Positions 34,490 to 42,003 of a DNA stretch of 61,111 bases are shown in pieces. The stretch lies in NCBI GenBank assembly GCA_022340745.1, contig JAJDNL010000019.1:1-61111 (forward strand). Direction: 5' to 3'. The position numbers were made by a program, and so were the translations under genes. Every line of letters starts with the position of its first letter. Position 1 is the first letter of the stretch. Source of the DNA: Deltaproteobacteria bacterium (lineage in GTDB: Bacteria; Desulfobacterota; Syntrophobacteria; BM002). The notes under the pieces were generated by a model. It did no database searches. It was not told the DNA's origin and saw only the letters and a list, made by a program, of their open reading frames with translations.

Positions 34490-34810
34490 ATGACAGACTT
34501 CATTCCCAGTAAGCGGTTTTTCAAGATTGGCGAGGTGAGCCGGATTGTAGGCGTTCCCACTCATGTGCTTCGCTATTGGGAGCGAGAGTTTTCCCTTGTC
34601 CGACCCCGACGCGCCCCTTCAAAGCAGCGGGTTTACCGTCGTAAAGATGTGGAGATGCTCCTGCACATCAAGAATTTGCTTCACGACGAGCAGTACACCA
34701 TCGCTGGCGCCCGCAAGAAATTAAAACTCCCCTCAGATCACTCTTCACACCACCCAACCTTGGATGAAATCAAACAAGAACTGATCGCCCTTCGACGCAT
34801 GTTAGATTGA
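34490..34810 (+). CDS. MerR family transcriptional regulator
   Basis: A 106-residue protein with a MerR winged helix at residues 10-75: [20 protein letters not shown], then [12 protein letters not shown] and [18 protein letters not shown]. The C-terminal part is short and has no metal-binding cysteines, so it belongs to the small pheT-linked MerR group seen in many Desulfobacterota; its target is unknown. The ihfA gene often found at this place is absent. 152 bases separate it from pheT. Confidence 0.88.
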
Positions 34811-34926: not shown

Positions 34927-34996
34927 CGAAATTGAAAGCATACGTGTTTAATCGCTGCTCTCACCTAGTGCGGAGCCAGTAAAAGTGAGGGGGGGT

Positions 34997-35392
34997 ATGG
35001 ATCTCGTCTTATCCAAAGAATCGATAGATAACATCATTAGCGTTCTGGATGAAGACCTTCTCCGGGCCGGGGCTGACTGTGTCCTCTTGGTTGACCGTTC
35101 TGGTAATCTTATTGTCAATCGAGGCGATCCTGCCAATCTGGATGTTGTAGCCTTAGCTGCACTCTCTGCGGCCAATTTCGGCGCAACCGCCGAGATTGCT
35201 AAACTCATTGGCGAAGATGACTTCGCTCTTCTTTTCCACAAAGGCAAAAATGAAAGCATCCACTTCACCAAAGTGGGAAAGGGGTTCATTCTTATTACCC
35301 TTTTCGGCAAGGATGTTTCCTTGGGGCTGATCAGGTTAAATACCGCGAGAGTGACTGATACACTGGTACCTATTCTGGGCGGAGAGCAGTAA
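34997..35392 (+). CDS. roadblock/LC7 domain protein (MglB-like)
   Basis: A 131-residue protein that is all one roadblock/LC7 domain: SIDNIISVLDEDLLRAGADC, VLLVDRSGNLIVNRGD, LAALSAANFGATAEIAKLIG and FILITLFGKDVSLGLIRLN. In MglB this fold is the GTPase-activating partner of MglA. The GTPase gene begins two bases after its stop, so the pair is surely co-translated. The ATG at 34997 follows GAGGGGGG directly; the in-frame GTG at 34985 lies before that site. Confidence 0.9.
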   Translation: MDLVLSKESIDNIISVLDEDLLRAGADCVLLVDRSGNLIVNRGDPANLDVVALAALSAANFGATAEIAKLIGEDDFALLFHKGKNESIHFTKVGKGFILITLFGKDVSLGLIRLNTARVTDTLVPILGGEQ

Positions 35393-35394
35393 CT

Positions 35395-36006
35395 GTGTCG
35401 TTTATTGATCTTAGTAAAAACGAGGTCCAATGTAAGATCGTCTACTACGGACCTGGGCGAGGGGGCAAGACTACCAACCTGCTCTACTTGCACCAGGCCA
35501 TGACCGACTCTGTTCGTGGCAAGATGGTTACCATCGATACCAAGGGTGACCGCACGCTCTTTTTTGATTTTCTCCCTTTGGCCCTCGGTCAGATTCAGGG
35601 ATTGAGTATAAAAATCCAGCTTTACACCGTCCCTGGCCAGGTCATGTACAATGCGACCCGCAAACTGGTTCTCAAAGGTGTGGATGGCATTGTATTCGTT
35701 GCTGATTCCCTGAAGGTTCAGAAAGAGAAGAACATTGAGAGTCTGGAAAATCTGAGACTGAATCTTGCTGAAGATAACATCGACATTAAGGAAATTCCTC
35801 TCGTCCTTCAGTACAATAAGAGAGACCTCGGCGGTTCTAATATCCCCATCCTCTCTGTTGAGGAGATGCAGGAAGACCTGAACAAGGAACTCCAGGTTCC
35901 CTATTTCAGTGGCAGCGCACTCAAGGGCGACGGTGTGTTTGAGACGCTGAGAGAGATCAGCAAGGGGACAGTAAAATATGTGAGCCGTAAGCTTTTATCT
36001 CGTTAA
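35395..36006 (+). CDS. MglA-like Ras-superfamily GTPase
   Basis: A 203-residue small GTPase. The P-loop is GPGRGGKTTN (residues 19-28), the switch II-type segment is TVPGQVMYNATRKLVLKGVD, the hydrophobic strand GIVFVADS follows, and the G4 motif is NKRD (in LQYNKRDLGG). The TVPGQ with no DxxG Asp and the GKTTN P-loop are MglA hallmarks. MglA-GTP marks a cell pole and directs motility or secretion machinery; MglB stimulates hydrolysis. The GTG start is two bases after the roadblock stop. No lipidation Cys is at the C-terminus. Confidence 0.92.
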   Translation: MSFIDLSKNEVQCKIVYYGPGRGGKTTNLLYLHQAMTDSVRGKMVTIDTKGDRTLFFDFLPLALGQIQGLSIKIQLYTVPGQVMYNATRKLVLKGVDGIVFVADSLKVQKEKNIESLENLRLNLAEDNIDIKEIPLVLQYNKRDLGGSNIPILSVEEMQEDLNKELQVPYFSGSALKGDGVFETLREISKGTVKYVSRKLLSR

Positions 36007-36035
36007 CAATCGCCAGTTGCCATAAGGAGGGGGAA

Positions 36036-38282
36036 ATGGATTTGACCGACGACCCCTTGGCAGGAGTTGATGCCAGCGAATTAGAGGCCGACATTGACAA
36101 GGCCATAGACGAACTCTTCGTAAAAAAAACCGAGGGGAAGGAACCTTCGCGAGCTGAGGAAGCCCCACCCGAAGAGCCCGACAAAGAACCGGCAGAGAAA
36201 CCAGTGGAAGAATCTGTCCCGGCTCCGCCGGCTGAAGCCGCAGATGATCCTTTAGCTCAATTGAAGGAGAGTCTTCTCACTCTGGATTGGGAAATTACTC
36301 CGGAGTCCATACAGGATTTTGAAAAAGAGCTCCAGGCCGTTAGCGACAAGCACGGTGATGATCGTCACTGCATGGCAGTGATTAAAATGTCCCTGGGCGT
36401 GCTCACATATCTACGGGCTGCAAAGGCTGATGCAGCGCCGATCTCCGTCCAGTTTTTACATGGAGCTACCCGCGGTCTTGATCTCTTCCTGCGGGAGTCA
36501 GAACCCACAGAGGCTGAGCGCAGCGAGGTAATGGACCAATTGCTCGGTCAATTTAGGCGGGTGAAGGCTGAGATCCAGCGGATGAAACCGTCGGCAGAAA
36601 GACCTCCAGCAGTTGAGCCCGAACCAGCCGTCGAGCCTCCGCCAGATGATGAGCCGATTTTGGAAGAAATGGTCGCGGAAGAACCAGCGCTGGAGGAGAT
36701 AATCGAGGAAGAGCCGATTCTGGAGGAGGCTGCCGCAGAGGAACCAATACTGGCGGCTACCCCTGAAGACGAACCAGTTCTAGACGAACTATTTGGGGAA
36801 GAACCGGTATTAGAAGAAGCGCTCGAGGAAGAGCCGATTCTGGAGGAGGCTGCCGCAGAGGAACCAACACTGGCGGCTACCCCTGAAGAAGAACCAGTGC
36901 TGGACGAATTATTCGGAGAGGAACCGGTATTAGAGGAAGCGCTCGAAGAAGAGCCGACTCTGATCGCTCCTGCAGAAGAAGAACCCTTGCTGGAAGAACC
37001 TCCGGAAGAAGAACCGACACTGGAAGCACTCACCGCAGAGGAACCAACACTGGCGGCTACCTCTGAAGAAGAACCAGTGCTGGACGAGCTTTTGGAAGAA
37101 GAACTTGTCGCTGAAGACATACCCGGGGCAGAGCCAACTCCGGAGGCACCTCCCGAGGAGGAACCAGTTTTTGAGGAGCTTTTCGACGAAGAACCGGTTC
37201 TGGAGCCAGCGGCAGAGCCAGCGGAAATGGCTCCGCCACCTGAGATGGTCCCGGCTGATACTCCTGCATCCCAGCAGCCCTTCATCCAAGAAGCCAGAGC
37301 CCTGAGTGGTCAACTTTCCAATGCTTTGCAGGTCCTTGACCAGGAGACCACCACCTTTTTTGCTCGCATTTTGCAAGCAATGGCAGGCAAGCCTGCTCTC
37401 CAGAAATTAGAGAGACATTTTGGCTCCGTGCATAAGACTGTAGGAGCTAAACTGACAGACGCCCAGGAACTGTCCGGCAATCTGAGTGCAGCGCTGAGCA
37501 AACTTGAGCAAAATTTAGACCAGCAGCAAGAGGGAGCCCTTGCCCCGAAAGCCCAGGCTGCAATTGATTCGCAGGTTACAACTATCCGTAATGCTGTTCA
37601 GAGTCTAAGTCAGGCCGCTTCCAACCTGCAGCACAGTCTTGCCGGTAAGGGTGTGGCATCCGAAGGGATAGCATTCAAAGATGCGCAATTGGAAACTGAA
37701 GAGTTCTCCTTGGATTCTGATGAGTTCATGGAGTCTCTAGATTCCGAACCAGTATTGGACCTGGTCGAGGAGATACCTTCCGAGTCCCCTGGTATGACTC
37801 CCGATGCACAGGCTAGCATTTACCTGGCCGACGTGGTCAACAACACCCTGGGTATTCCTGCGGAGGCCGTCGTCAATATCTACAAGGTTTCCAAGGGCAA
37901 AGTGAAGAGTTTGCGCAAGAGAGGTTACCTTAGACTGACCGATTTCAAGGGGGCATTTCGCAGCATCAAGCGGGGAATTACTGGTCCTCTCGCCAACCTC
38001 AAACCGAAAGACTTGAAGAAAATCCAATTCCCCATTATCACTCTTGGTGCGGAAATCCTTGGCAGCGATGACACCGAGGCCGTAGCCCCCGTCAGAGGTA
38101 TTGTTCTGCTCAGCACTGGTGAGCGCCACGGTGCCTTACTGACTGATGAGGTCATGCAAAGGACGCCCTATGACGTCAAAGGCTTCCGCAAAGCTGGGGT
38201 ACCAGGAAAGGTGAGCGGCACGGCCACCATTGAAGGAGATTTTGAGATTAACGTTATTGATCCGAACTACGTGCTCTCGTAA
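36036..38282 (+). CDS. large acidic-repeat protein, possible CheW-like C-terminal domain
   Basis: A 748-residue acidic protein encoded 29 bases after the MglA-like gene. N-terminal region (1-190): acidic, then a helical domain (DWEITPESIQDFEKELQAVS). Region 205-400: Glu/Pro repeats of EEPxLEE type, with 40-residue higher-order units. Region 410-550: heptad-rich helices (QLSNALQVLDQETTTFFARI). Region about 588-748: a globular domain with FPIITLGAEILG, GIVLLSTGERHGALLTDEVM and GTATIEGDFEINVIDPNYVL, which reads like a CheW/CheA-P5 fold (inner strand, ligand-face strand, final strand). That last call is by pattern only. It could be a scaffold that ties the GTPase pair to a signalling partner. Confidence 0.72.
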   Translation: MDLTDDPLAGVDASELEADIDKAIDELFVKKTEGKEPSRAEEAPPEEPDKEPAEKPVEESVPAPPAEAADDPLAQLKESLLTLDWEITPESIQDFEKELQAVSDKHGDDRHCMAVIKMSLGVLTYLRAAKADAAPISVQFLHGATRGLDLFLRESEPTEAERSEVMDQLLGQFRRVKAEIQRMKPSAERPPAVEPEPAVEPPPDDEPILEEMVAEEPALEEIIEEEPILEEAAAEEPILAATPEDEPVLDELFGEEPVLEEALEEEPILEEAAAEEPTLAATPEEEPVLDELFGEEPVLEEALEEEPTLIAPAEEEPLLEEPPEEEPTLEALTAEEPTLAATSEEEPVLDELLEEELVAEDIPGAEPTPEAPPEEEPVFEELFDEEPVLEPAAEPAEMAPPPEMVPADTPASQQPFIQEARALSGQLSNALQVLDQETTTFFARILQAMAGKPALQKLERHFGSVHKTVGAKLTDAQELSGNLSAALSKLEQNLDQQQEGALAPKAQAAIDSQVTTIRNAVQSLSQAASNLQHSLAGKGVASEGIAFKDAQLETEEFSLDSDEFMESLDSEPVLDLVEEIPSESPGMTPDAQASIYLADVVNNTLGIPAEAVVNIYKVSKGKVKSLRKRGYLRLTDFKGAFRSIKRGITGPLANLKPKDLKKIQFPIITLGAEILGSDDTEAVAPVRGIVLLSTGERHGALLTDEVMQRTPYDVKGFRKAGVPGKVSGTATIEGDFEINVIDPNYVLS
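36711..37090 (+). repeat. in-frame 120-base tandem repeat in the acidic protein gene
   Basis: GAGCCGATTCTGGAGGAGG recurs at 36711 and 36831 and in altered form at 36951, exactly 120 bases (40 codons) apart, with long identical stretches between. A further copy of the GAGGAACCAACACTGGCGG part occurs at about 37037. Near identity at silent positions points to recent duplication, so copy number may vary between strains. Confidence 0.85.
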
Positions 38283-38353
38283 ATCGCCACCGGCCTAGAC
38301 TGATTGACCGCCTCCCAGGTTAGCAGGACAGTTGCCCGGGGTCTTCCCTGACC

Positions 38354-40510
38354 ATGCAATCAGACAATATTAACCATTCCAGCGCCGATGGCCTCTCTGA
38401 GATCCAAGAAAAGATACATGAGGCTGAACTCTACCTTTCTCAGGGTCTTTTCGACGAAGCCCGCCAGGTCTATCAACAGCTCCTGGAAGAATTAGGATCC
38501 CTCTCGCAAAAAGCCTCTACCGATCCAGCCTTTCGTCAAACCTACGAAAGCCGTCGCGGATTTATTCGGGAACAACTGGCTCTCATTGAACGCCAGGAAG
38601 CCGAATTCCACGGCCAACCCTCGGAGGCCAAACCCGAAGAGCATATCGATGCCCAAGAAGGGGAAGGAAGTGCTGCCTTCAATCGAGGGCAAGCGTTTCT
38701 GGACATCGGTCTCTACGCCGAGGCAATCCAGGAGTTTCAAAGCGCTGCCAGCCTAGGATTCCAGCCGATTGAATGTTCTCTGCAGATTGGCAAGGCTCAT
38801 ATTCAGCTCGGGCAGCACAGAGAAGGTCTCCGGATCTTGGAGAAGACCTATAGACAGAAAGGTTTGGATGATACCGACCGCAATGTGCTCTTGGGGCAGA
38901 TGGCGGTAGGGTATGAAACAGCTGGGGACATGGAAAAGGCCCTAGAGTTCTACCAGCAGCTGGCGGCGAGCGACCCGACGCATCGAACTGCGGCCAAGAA
39001 GGTCAAAAGCTTGGCCAAAGATAGCGATCGCTATGAGCTAAACGTGGTGAAGCTTCACCTCAAGAACGAGCAGTTCTCGAAAGCCATCAAAACGCTGCGG
39101 CACATGGAGAGCGAGCAGCAGGTCCCGGTTGACCGATTAGTGCCCTTATATGAGCAAGTACTGGAGAAAGATCCGGGTAACGCTGATGCCATGGAGCGAG
39201 TCGCGGCCATTTACCAAGAGATGCTTGACAACGGAAGTGAGAAGACCGACATTCGCTTGAAGCTTGCCAGACACCTTCTCCGTGCGGGCGAATTCGACAG
39301 TGCTGCCAATGAATATCTGCACGTAATGCTGGAGGACACCCCTTACAAATTGACTGCCCTGACCGAATTCGGCGAGGCTTTGCTAAAAAGACAGGACTAT
39401 GATCGAACTCTTGAGGTCTTGGAAGATGCTCTTCCCTGGATAGAGTCCATCAAGCCCGGACCTGAAACGTTGAAGTACTATTATCTGATGGGAACTGCCT
39501 GCGAGAGGAAAAATCTATACGACCGGGCGCAAACCTACTTCCAGCGTGCTGCCTCTATTGATCCCACTCACAAGGTAATCCGCTCCAAGGTGCAGACGCA
39601 GACCCAGGGACCCCTCTTGTCCACTGGCAAGGGTTTGCTTGGCCTCCAGGTGGACCCTAATCTCAAGTACGAAATTCAGGCAGAACTTGGTCAGGATGAG
39701 ATCCATCAGATTGTCCGAGTGCGCGAGGTTCCGAGTGGAACCTTTCGTGTCGCCAAGACCCTTCTCCCTCAACTGTCTGGTGGGGCTAAGGTCAAAGATT
39801 TCATTGTGAAGTGGGCCTACGAGCAACTGAATATGGAAAACCGCAACATCACTCGAGTCCTGGATGTAGCCGAACATGAGGGCCACTATTACCTAATCAT
39901 GGAAAATTTTGACAGCACCCTGGAGGATCTGCTAAAAGAGAAACCTCACCTGTCCATAGCCGAGGCCCTCAGCTTGGCCAGAGCCCTCCTCAACGCTCTT
40001 GCCTATGCCCATTCGCATCGAGGCGCTGACGATACCCTCAGGAAGATATTCCACCTTGCTCTCAACTCCAAACGGGTGATTGTCAGCGACCAGGTTAGCA
40101 ACGCCAAAATTACCGATTTTGGTCTTGTCTACCAGCTCAGTAACATGCTGGATTTGACAACGAACTATGAGAAACTCTCCGCTTTTGAATTAGCCTATAT
40201 GGCGCCCGAGCTGTTCAACCGCGCTCCGGCGCGAATGCCGGATAAGATGAAGCAGGCCGCAGATCTCTACTCTTTCGGCCTCGTATTCTATCAAGCTCTC
40301 ACAGGGAAATTGCCGTTTGAAGGGCCATCACCGGAGGACTTCAAGAAACAGCACAATGAGAAATACCCCGTGCCTCCCCGGGTGCATATTTCCAGCATTC
40401 CTGCCAAACTGGATGAAGCCATTTTGAAATGTCTGCACAAAGATCCTAAGAAGCGCTGGCGTACGCCCACAGAGTTAGATCTTGCCCTTGAGAAAATTCC
40501 TACCAAGTAG
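38354..40510 (+). CDS. TPR protein fused to a protein pseudokinase
   Basis: A 718-residue protein. Residues about 20-415 are TPR-like helical repeats (KIHEAELYLSQGLFDEARQV, AQTYFQRAASIDPTHK). Residues about 430-715 have a protein kinase fold: beta3 Lys in FRVAKTLL (K468), a DFG motif in KITDFGL (D588), YMAPELFNRAP, and DLYSFGLVFYQALTGKLPF. The catalytic loop is altered: the HRDLKPxN segment reads HLALNSKR (567-574), so the catalytic Asp is Ala and the Asn is lost. No Gly-rich loop is visible before K468. It is therefore probably a pseudokinase acting as a binding platform. It lies 71 bases after the acidic-repeat gene on the same strand. Confidence 0.85.
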   Translation: MQSDNINHSSADGLSEIQEKIHEAELYLSQGLFDEARQVYQQLLEELGSLSQKASTDPAFRQTYESRRGFIREQLALIERQEAEFHGQPSEAKPEEHIDAQEGEGSAAFNRGQAFLDIGLYAEAIQEFQSAASLGFQPIECSLQIGKAHIQLGQHREGLRILEKTYRQKGLDDTDRNVLLGQMAVGYETAGDMEKALEFYQQLAASDPTHRTAAKKVKSLAKDSDRYELNVVKLHLKNEQFSKAIKTLRHMESEQQVPVDRLVPLYEQVLEKDPGNADAMERVAAIYQEMLDNGSEKTDIRLKLARHLLRAGEFDSAANEYLHVMLEDTPYKLTALTEFGEALLKRQDYDRTLEVLEDALPWIESIKPGPETLKYYYLMGTACERKNLYDRAQTYFQRAASIDPTHKVIRSKVQTQTQGPLLSTGKGLLGLQVDPNLKYEIQAELGQDEIHQIVRVREVPSGTFRVAKTLLPQLSGGAKVKDFIVKWAYEQLNMENRNITRVLDVAEHEGHYYLIMENFDSTLEDLLKEKPHLSIAEALSLARALLNALAYAHSHRGADDTLRKIFHLALNSKRVIVSDQVSNAKITDFGLVYQLSNMLDLTTNYEKLSAFELAYMAPELFNRAPARMPDKMKQAADLYSFGLVFYQALTGKLPFEGPSPEDFKKQHNEKYPVPPRVHISSIPAKLDEAILKCLHKDPKKRWRTPTELDLALEKIPTK

Positions 40511-40559
40511 CTCGCATTCCTCATTTTTCATTTCTCAAGAGGCATCGTCATAAGTATTT

Positions 40560-40653
40560 AGTGTCCACCCGGAAAACACAAGAATACCTCCTCTTTGTCG
40601 AAGATCCCGTTGCAGTCTCGTGGTGAGTACGGGGGGATTTTTGGATGGACACT
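40560..40653. repeat. element E, short inverted-repeat element
   Basis: The ends AGTGTCCACCC (40560-40570) and GGATGGACACT (40643-40653) are complementary apart from one base. The 94-base span has no ORF. It lies in the 269-base gap between the convergent pseudokinase and DUF4388 genes and could be a MITE remnant or a terminator-like structure. Confidence 0.5.
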
Positions 40654-40779
40654 CGTAAGGATGGCTCTGGGTTGCGGGCGAGGGGGAGAGGCCTCAGAGT
40701 ATCGCATGGAATGAGCCTAAGTAATGAATGAGCAAGGACAAATTGCCACGGACGATGGACGATAGACAACGGCCTATAT

Positions 40780-42003
40780 TTACTTCCGTTTAAGAAAGGA
40801 GAGAATTCCTTTTCCCTTGCCCTTCGCACCCTGGTTCACTTCTTGCTGAAATTGCTCCACCGTTTGGATGATGGTGCTCAGGATGGCTCCTTTGAGGTTG
40901 GACTTGCCGGCAAGCTGTTGCCAGGCGGCGTCGGGTCTGGTCAATTCCTGGAGGTTAGTTACCATGGCCTCTTCACTCAAAATTCCTTTCTGTTTGTGCA
41001 GGATGGCAAGGATCCAGGCATTGAACGCGTACAGTAGTTCCTCATTGCCGGGAGGAGAATTAGGAGCAGCCTCCAGGACCAGCTTCAGGTTTTTCTTGGC
41101 ATCACTTCGGCAATCATAGGTTCTGAGTAATTTCGAGTATTGGGCCGGCACCTGGGCTTTGGCTTCTTCCAAAAGATTGTAGGCTCGATCGCCGACGGCT
41201 TTTTCTGTGATCTTCAGTATGCCCAGGAGTACATGGTGATAAATGTGGATGATAGTAGGAGCTTCACTCTTGCCCCCGGAAGTCACCGCAGCAGCACCTC
41301 CGCTTGGTTCAATAAGGCCCGAGGAAATCAGAGAGTTGATCATGCGATAGACAACGAACTCATCGTGGCCGCTGTCGTCGACGATTTGTTCTACTGTCCG
41401 CCTTCCATCAACGAGTGAGATTACCCGCCACTCATTTGCTGTCAGGTTAACTGTGTCGCGCTGTTTCTCCACACTTTTGTTAATTTTGAAAACCACGTGG
41501 GGATTTGGAATATTCTTACTGAGAATTTCCCACTCATCCACACGCCGGGTTCCCTCTAAAATTACCTCCATGTGATTTAGCTCAGTGACAAACTCCTCGT
41601 CCAGGTCGAAATCCTGGTCCACGTACTCGAAGTCCCCTTTTTTCCACAAGAACAAATCGTAGAGGATGTCGCGCACCTGCTGATGAATAAACTTCTTCAG
41701 GGTCTCGAGGGAAATATAGCTCTTTTCCACCAGGATCTTACCCAATCGCTCTTTTCTCTGTTTCGCCAAGGTTAAGGCCTTCTGGAGTTCCTCGGCTGAG
41801 ATGATGCCTTTGGTGCGCAGAAGATAACCCAGTCTTACCTCCTTTTGGGTGCCTACCGCATAAATAATGTTGCCATTCTTGATGTACACCCGCACCATTC
41901 GCCCTTTATCGGCGATGGTGAGAATGCCTGTCTTCTTATCTTGGGCAAGCAACTGCAGCATGCTGGACAGATAAAATGTCTCAATGTTTCCCTTCAATGC
42001 CAT
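40780..42003 (-). CDS. DUF4388 domain protein
   Basis: A 407-residue protein. The N-terminal DUF4388 domain (about 1-100) begins MALKGNIETFYLSSMLQLLA and has KTGILTIADKGRMVRVYIKN. A type IV pilus PilB/T2SS N-terminal-like part follows (GYLLRTKGIISAEELQKAL, LGKILVEKSYIS), then a winged-helix-like segment (NEWRVISLVDGRRTVEQIVD) and a helical C-terminus. DUF4388 proteins are common near MglA-like GTPases and roadblock proteins in Desulfobacterota and Myxococcota; their role is taken to be signalling. It converges on the pseudokinase gene, so it is a neighbour but not in that operon. Confidence 0.85.
   Translation of the reverse strand: MALKGNIETFYLSSMLQLLAQDKKTGILTIADKGRMVRVYIKNGNIIYAVGTQKEVRLGYLLRTKGIISAEELQKALTLAKQRKERLGKILVEKSYISLETLKKFIHQQVRDILYDLFLWKKGDFEYVDQDFDLDEEFVTELNHMEVILEGTRRVDEWEILSKNIPNPHVVFKINKSVEKQRDTVNLTANEWRVISLVDGRRTVEQIVDDSGHDEFVVYRMINSLISSGLIEPSGGAAAVTSGGKSEAPTIIHIYHHVLLGILKITEKAVGDRAYNLLEEAKAQVPAQYSKLLRTYDCRSDAKKNLKLVLEAAPNSPPGNEELLYAFNAWILAILHKQKGILSEEAMVTNLQELTRPDAAWQQLAGKSNLKGAILSTIIQTVEQFQQEVNQGAKGKGKGILSFLKRK

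Follow-up and report, generated by a model that had tools for sequence, protein, structure and literature searches.

In Myxococcus xanthus, the cell poles are defined by MglA and MglB. The TPR protein SgmX of this species is bound by MglA-GTP and is required for polar PilB (PMC7519303, PMC11580455). Even in Myxococcus, a direct contact between SgmX and PilB, as a step from MglA-GTP to the pilus extension motor, has not been detected (PMC11580455). Here, we analysed a window of 61,111 nucleotides (contig JAJDNL010000019.1 of assembly GCA_022340745.1, from a deltaproteobacterium of the phylum Desulfobacterota), in which the genes for a roadblock (RB) protein and a small GTPase are followed by those for an acidic adaptor and for a TPR protein fused to a pseudokinase. 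Like the MglA/MglB-SgmX-FrzS-SopA-PilB pathway of M. xanthus and the MglA-Bd2492 pathway of Bdellovibrio, this locus pairs a Group 1 MglA with an MglB-type partner, and a TPR protein is the likely effector and the pilus extension ATPase the likely target. In contrast to those pathways, the components are encoded here in one operon that includes a CheA-like scaffold, the TPR part is joined to an ATPase or a pseudokinase in one chain, and similarity at the level of SgmX is absent. An identification of the TPR protein of the window as SgmX was rejected, as model NF052243 gave 25.6 bits (E 3.5e-6) against a cut-off of 1800, which reflects generic TPR similarity.

The survey of Group 1 MglA neighbourhoods (PMC4316618) reports, in the part of it covered here, the same GTPase group, the same pairing with MglB and PATAN genes near some loci; these neighbourhoods vary widely, but neither an LDWE/CheW adaptor nor a TPR-PilB or TPR-pseudokinase gene is described in that part. 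In the actinobacterial conservons (CvnA-D), an operon likewise encodes a roadblock protein together with signalling proteins and a GTPase of the MglA family, but the conservons carry a Group 2 GTPase with the motif GTPGQ and the histidine kinase CvnA, whereas the window operon has TVPGQ and no histidine kinase. No description of an MglA/LDWE-adaptor/TPR-effector module was found in the open literature that was searched, in agreement with an earlier sequence-only reading of this DNA, which knew of no described system of the kind. Within the known MglA theme, the module stands out by a new adaptor family and by effectors that can be exchanged.

Operon layout and the MglA/MglB pair

As shown in Table 1, the four genes all lie on the plus strand, with intergenic gaps of 2, 29 and 71 bases, and a DUF4388 gene converges on them; the location and the gaps are those that the sequence-only reading had given. 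The RB gene has an alternative GTG start at 34985, and we placed its start at ATG 34997 because the relatives align from there. Scans for promoters and terminators returned sites that were no more numerous than in shuffled sequence. The MerR gene upstream (34490-34810) was rejected as a part of the module, being flanking only and present just in families f1 and f4. Genes for MreB and for a GAF-GGDEF protein do lie near the operon, as had been pointed out earlier, and the closeness of mreB carries no weight for the interpretation.

The solved structures closest to the first two gene products are those of MglB (1e-22) and MglA (5e-63), and RB is the sole Robl match in the genome. The earlier MglB-like and MglA-like calls were thus confirmed by matches to both Pfam and solved structures. 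In MglA, the arginine finger R53 adjoins the G2 threonine T54, an arrangement that is invariant in 16 sequences, while the G3 motif reads TVPGQ (residues 78-82) and the G4 motif NKRD (residues 141-144), which fits [NT]KxD. By the motif definitions in the part covered here of the Group 1 description (Wuichet and Sogaard-Andersen 2014, PMC4316618), the sequence places this GTPase in Group 1, based on R53-T54, TVPGQ, NKRD and the MglB partner encoded directly 5′. RB is classed as MglB-type, and by homology it is a putative GAP.

Table 1. Genes, domains and motifs of the operon and of the convergent gene (positions are those of the window).
Feature	Position	Strand	Evidence or remark
MglB-type roadblock (RB) protein	34997..35392	+	131 aa; Robl_LC7 7e-11; MglB structure 1.4e-22
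Group 1 MglA small GTPase	35395..36006	+	203 aa; Ras 4e-7 / Arf 7e-7; MglA structure 5e-63
Acidic adaptor / CheA-like scaffold	36036..38282	+	748 aa; homologs 3′ of MglA in 32 families
Short N-terminal motif ELEADIDKAIDELFVKK, IDELF-type	36078..36128	+	other adaptors have e.g. IDDLF, IDSLFVP
'LDWE' five-helix domain, P1/HPt-like without conserved His	36255..36584	+	50-sequence alignment; AF2 pLDDT 89.7
Acidic E/P-rich repeat linker	36621..37280	+	translation
Region with weak coiled-coil and PilJ-type model matches	37293..37670	+	all under curated cut-offs
CheW / CheA-P5-like domain (predicted)	37815..38279	+	AF2 pLDDT 81.6; Foldseek
TPR-pseudokinase	38354..40510	+	718 aa; Pfam TPR, Pkinase 3e-26
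N-terminal TPR module, common to TPR-MshEN-PilB-type proteins elsewhere	38387..39013	+	homology, signature
Pseudokinase domain	39659..40507	+	K468 and D588 kept; HRD Asp is Ala569; catalytic Asn is Arg574
DUF4388 protein, convergent on the operon	40780..42003	-	407 aa; DUF4388 1.7e-33
MshEN-type c-di-GMP-binding motif (predicted) within the DUF4388 domain	41677..41835	-	NF053729 5.4e-13, 48.5 bits, cut-off 38

The acidic adaptor and its possible relation to CheA

No Pfam or NCBIfam family matched the acidic adaptor of the window, and its weak matches to HAUS1, Baculo_PEP and PilJ were rejected as coiled-coil noise. The C-terminal domain is predicted to have a CheW/CheA-P5 fold, since the 18 best PDB matches returned by Foldseek were all CheA or CheW-containing entries (probability 0.99-1.00). 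The CheW-like character that had been proposed from the letters alone was therefore upheld by the profile, by the predicted fold and by Pfam CheW matches in 3 of 19 adaptor relatives (at E <= 0.1; best E 4e-6), but not by Pfam CheW in the window adaptor itself, which gave no match.

The LDWE domain is named after an almost invariant L-[DE]-W-E core, in which only W22 and E23 are invariant among the 50 aligned sequences; no conserved His was present in this alignment. Its best fold match was CheA P1, with a high probability (0.96) and a poor Foldseek E value (0.38). When it was compared once by hhalign with the HPt region at the N-terminus of the CheA from the same genome, 102 columns aligned weakly (E 1.3e-4, probability 54). 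These results weakly suggest that the LDWE domain is P1-like, which falls short of a proven P1. Sequence matches of the LDWE profile in the PDB were mostly to designed helical proteins and were rejected. If the P1-like assignment is right, the adaptor would be a CheA without the kinase core, and the models for that core (H-kinase_dim and HATPase_c, CheA P3/P4) had no match in the adaptor. Compared with the CheA/CheW scaffold, with which it shares the CheW/P5 fold and possibly a P1-like domain, the adaptor has neither the P3/P4 core nor a conserved phospho-His, contains a long acidic linker and is encoded together with a GTPase. The adaptors form an unnamed family that is characterised by the LDWE domain, often with a CheW-like domain in addition; in the adaptors of families f20, f42 and f50, the LDWE domain was found and a CheW-like domain was not detected.

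Gene order across the phylum and the identity of the fourth gene

Among 297 evenly drawn genomes of the Desulfobacterota, MglA was found in 166 (E <= 1e-30), and gene neighbourhoods were inspected around the closest of these matches; a search with a profile of the CheW-like domain revealed further operons. Because the genomes were drawn evenly and the neighbourhoods are those of the closest MglA matches only, the numbers given here are counts, not frequencies. The order RB, MglA, adaptor was present in 64 genomes from 32 families of the phylum. The full order with the TPR-pseudokinase in fourth place is kept in f1, f3, f4 and f6 of the window's class, and the TPR-pseudokinase version occurs only in these four families, its named carriers being MAGs of Syntrophobacteraceae, Syntrophobacterales, Desulfarculales, Desulfobacterales, Desulfobacteraceae and unclassified Deltaproteobacteria. 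Since the order is kept in four families of the class for all four genes and in 32 families of the phylum for the first three, chance grouping is excluded. The conserved module that the sequence-only reading had supposed, with a CheW-like scaffold and a pseudokinase, is thus real; its clustering across the phylum holds for the first three genes but only within the class for all four, and the pseudokinase is a lineage-specific version of an exchangeable effector.

In 13 families outside the window's class, the fourth gene encodes a TPR-MshEN-T2SSE protein, and in f43 such a gene is found further downstream, behind a second adaptor, which brings the fusions with a PilB-type ATPase to 14 families and makes them the commonest recognised fourth gene across the phylum. 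For three representatives of the fused ATPases, the best NCBIfam model was PilB TIGR02538 (1e-150 to 2e-159), ahead of GspE. The fused ATPases score about 503-532 bits, under the PilB equivalog cut-off of 675.65, so that a T2SS or another T4P-like system is possible as their machine. Walker A is intact in all of them (25/25).

Homology between the N-terminal TPR modules of the pseudokinase proteins and those of the ATPase proteins extends over about 190 residues (87 bits for locus L128). In addition, an N-terminal signature of the type E-A-x-[LV]-Y-x-x-Q-G-L was present in 21/22 pseudokinase and 24/25 ATPase proteins, compared with 22 of 2076 other ORFs and none of six TPR-less ATPases from the window's own genome; a first, stricter pattern had matched 12/23 and 9/25, and the signature counts are post hoc because the pattern was widened after the sequences were seen. 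The midpoint root of the MglA tree has the ATPase version on both of its sides, so that this version may be ancestral. Four changes are needed for the pseudokinase version, and a single origin for it is neither shown by the tree nor excluded.

The fourth gene product of the window had been described as a TPR protein with a dead kinase, and this was borne out by the replacement of the HRD Asp with Ala and of the catalytic Asn with Arg. The full catalytic set (VAIK Lys, HRD Asp, catalytic Asn and DFG Asp) was present in none of the 32 kinase-domain sequences, and the catalytic Asn was replaced by Arg in every one of them. In the window's family, the VAIK Lys and the DFG Asp are kept and the HRD Asp is lost; in the other families, the HRD Asp is kept (HLDLRPSR) and the VAIK Lys and the DFG Asp are lost. 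That the kinase domain has degenerated in two ways while His-Leu and Arg stayed conserved speaks, as far as can be judged from sequence, for a preserved function other than catalysis.

Other arrangements were also found. In f13, f16, f76 and f97, the fourth position is held by a histidine kinase/NtrC pair. Such a pair followed RB, MglA and the adaptor at L131 (checked with Pfam) and, by similarity, at L155, L158, L160, L161, L163, L170, L174, L175, L177 and L178. Since some families combine MglA and the adaptor with a histidine kinase/NtrC pair or with no recognised fourth gene, the link to pili is not universal. In the f43 operons (L120, L122, L123), two CheW-like adaptors and two or three DUF4388 genes lie between MglA and the TPR-ATPase, together with a Cache-HAMP protein and a class III-type cytochrome (domains checked in L120). 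In f26 (L154, L166), the gene after RB, MglA and the adaptor encodes a protein of about 475 aa that contains TPRs but lacks the N-terminal signature. Families f6 and f11 have extra MglA paralogs without a recognised adaptor (L145, L146, L147, L149, L179, L180).

A possible route from MglA to the pilus motor

We think it moderately probable that the operon is the class-specific version of a phylum-wide MglA effector module, in which MglA-GTP steers a T4P-type motor via the TPR module, on the model of MglA-SgmX-PilB in Myxococcus. We infer that MglA would bind the TPR module and/or the scaffold in its GTP form, that MglB would end the signal, and that the complex would control the polar placement or the activity of the type IV pilus extension motor. 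In the families with fused ATPases, the motor would be under the direct control of the GTPase. The pseudokinase of the window's class would stand in the motor's place, and a PilB encoded by a separate gene would dock on it under regulation by a nucleotide or a partner. Input from chemosensory arrays could be taken by the CheW-like domain of the adaptor, and the DUF4388/MshEN protein could add a c-di-GMP input. In the simplest account of the swap, the MglA signal would arrive at the shared TPR module and the fused C-terminus would be the output, which is a motor in most families and here a pseudokinase for docking. The adaptor and the TPR-pseudokinase may be output partners of the GTPase, as had been suggested from their order. 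More tentatively, and as a possibility short of a likelihood, the scaffold would be derived from CheA without its kinase core and would couple MglA to an exchangeable TPR effector, and the pseudokinase would have replaced the pilus motor in evolution and would do the motor's docking job. In Synechocystis, PATAN proteins act with PilB1 (PMC7690835, PMC9090330), and in early aggregates of Syntrophobacterium fumaroxidans, an MglA, which may not be that of the operon, is co-expressed with T4P genes (PMC10787695).

The genome of the window encodes PilB and two PilT proteins above cut-off, PilM, and a GspE that is also above cut-off. It has one CheA cluster (CheW-CheW-MCP-CheA-CheB, then a CheR-like gene). 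Directly before this cluster, on contig C94 (8000-25306; L211), lies the gene for a PilB-type ATPase of 739 aa with the architecture MshEN-T2SSE-receiver.

The CheW fold of the adaptor, the single CheA cluster and the histidine kinase/NtrC pairs in four families would suit a mainly chemosensory branch: the adaptor would enter CheA arrays through its CheW-like domain, and what MglA and the pseudokinase modulate would be array signalling or gene expression, not the pilus. We regard this as unlikely, since a PilB-type ATPase is the commonest recognised fourth gene in the phylum and the adaptors of f20, f42 and f50 have the LDWE domain but no detected CheW-like domain. It is quite improbable that the module switches polarity or cell shape in general, for instance by way of MreB, with no motility output: mreB lies about 7 kb from the operon in the window and MglA/MglB set the poles in M. 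xanthus, but a PilB-type ATPase is fused to the TPR module in 14 families. We also give little credence to type II secretion or another T4P-like machine as the target in place of pili. GspE models trail PilB by just 2 to 12 orders of magnitude for the fused ATPases and the genome's own GspE passes its cut-off, but PilB was ahead of GspE in 3/3 representatives, and the known outputs of MglA and of PATAN proteins are pili (PMC7519303, PMC7690835).

That the genes are unrelated neighbours, grouped by chance or by slow rearrangement, has virtually no chance of being correct and is already refuted by the phylum-wide gene order. The operon does adjoin pheST, the same context, in both the window's family and f4, but the same order recurs in other families and other contexts, and the fourth gene swaps its domain yet keeps the TPR module. 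Because the exchangeable effector is most often a PilB-type ATPase, control of pili is indicated over the unspecified spatial role that had been proposed.

Taken together, these results suggest a route by which the GTPase would reach type IV pili directly and which lends itself to testing. The fused system addresses the step from MglA-GTP to the motor, and since an MglA-linked TPR module and a PilB-type ATPase are joined in one chain beside mglA, it offers a short, purifiable system for that step. An adaptor that is possibly a CheA lacking its kinase, together with the swap from motor to pseudokinase, would connect bacterial Ras-like GTPases with chemosensory scaffolds and with pseudokinases.

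The DUF4388 protein matches PF14332, a family that occurs in Synechococcus elongatus, and we take DUF4388 to be the PATAN domain of PatA and PixE. On this assumption, it resembles the cyanobacterial pilus-motor regulators PixE, PixG and LsiR in its domain, but it has an MshEN motif and no receiver domain, and its gene only converges on the operon. This adjacency is kept in the window's family (L003, L005, L034, L036, L136), and DUF4388 genes near mglA stand in other arrangements beyond it. Of the earlier inclusion of the DUF4388 gene in the module, the convergence on the operon holds; outside the window's own family, the adjacency is not kept. A loose link of PATAN proteins with mglA/mglB genes was already noted (PMC4316618, in the part covered). 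In the genome of the window, DUF4388 is found at several further loci, one of them on a contig with GspE and a PilM match. In a second arrangement of mglA, a TPR gene (about 300 aa), mglA and a DUF4388 gene (about 400 aa) follow one another without a roadblock gene, and these loci form one supported MglA clade (n=7: L181, L183, L189, L190, L193, L194, L201).
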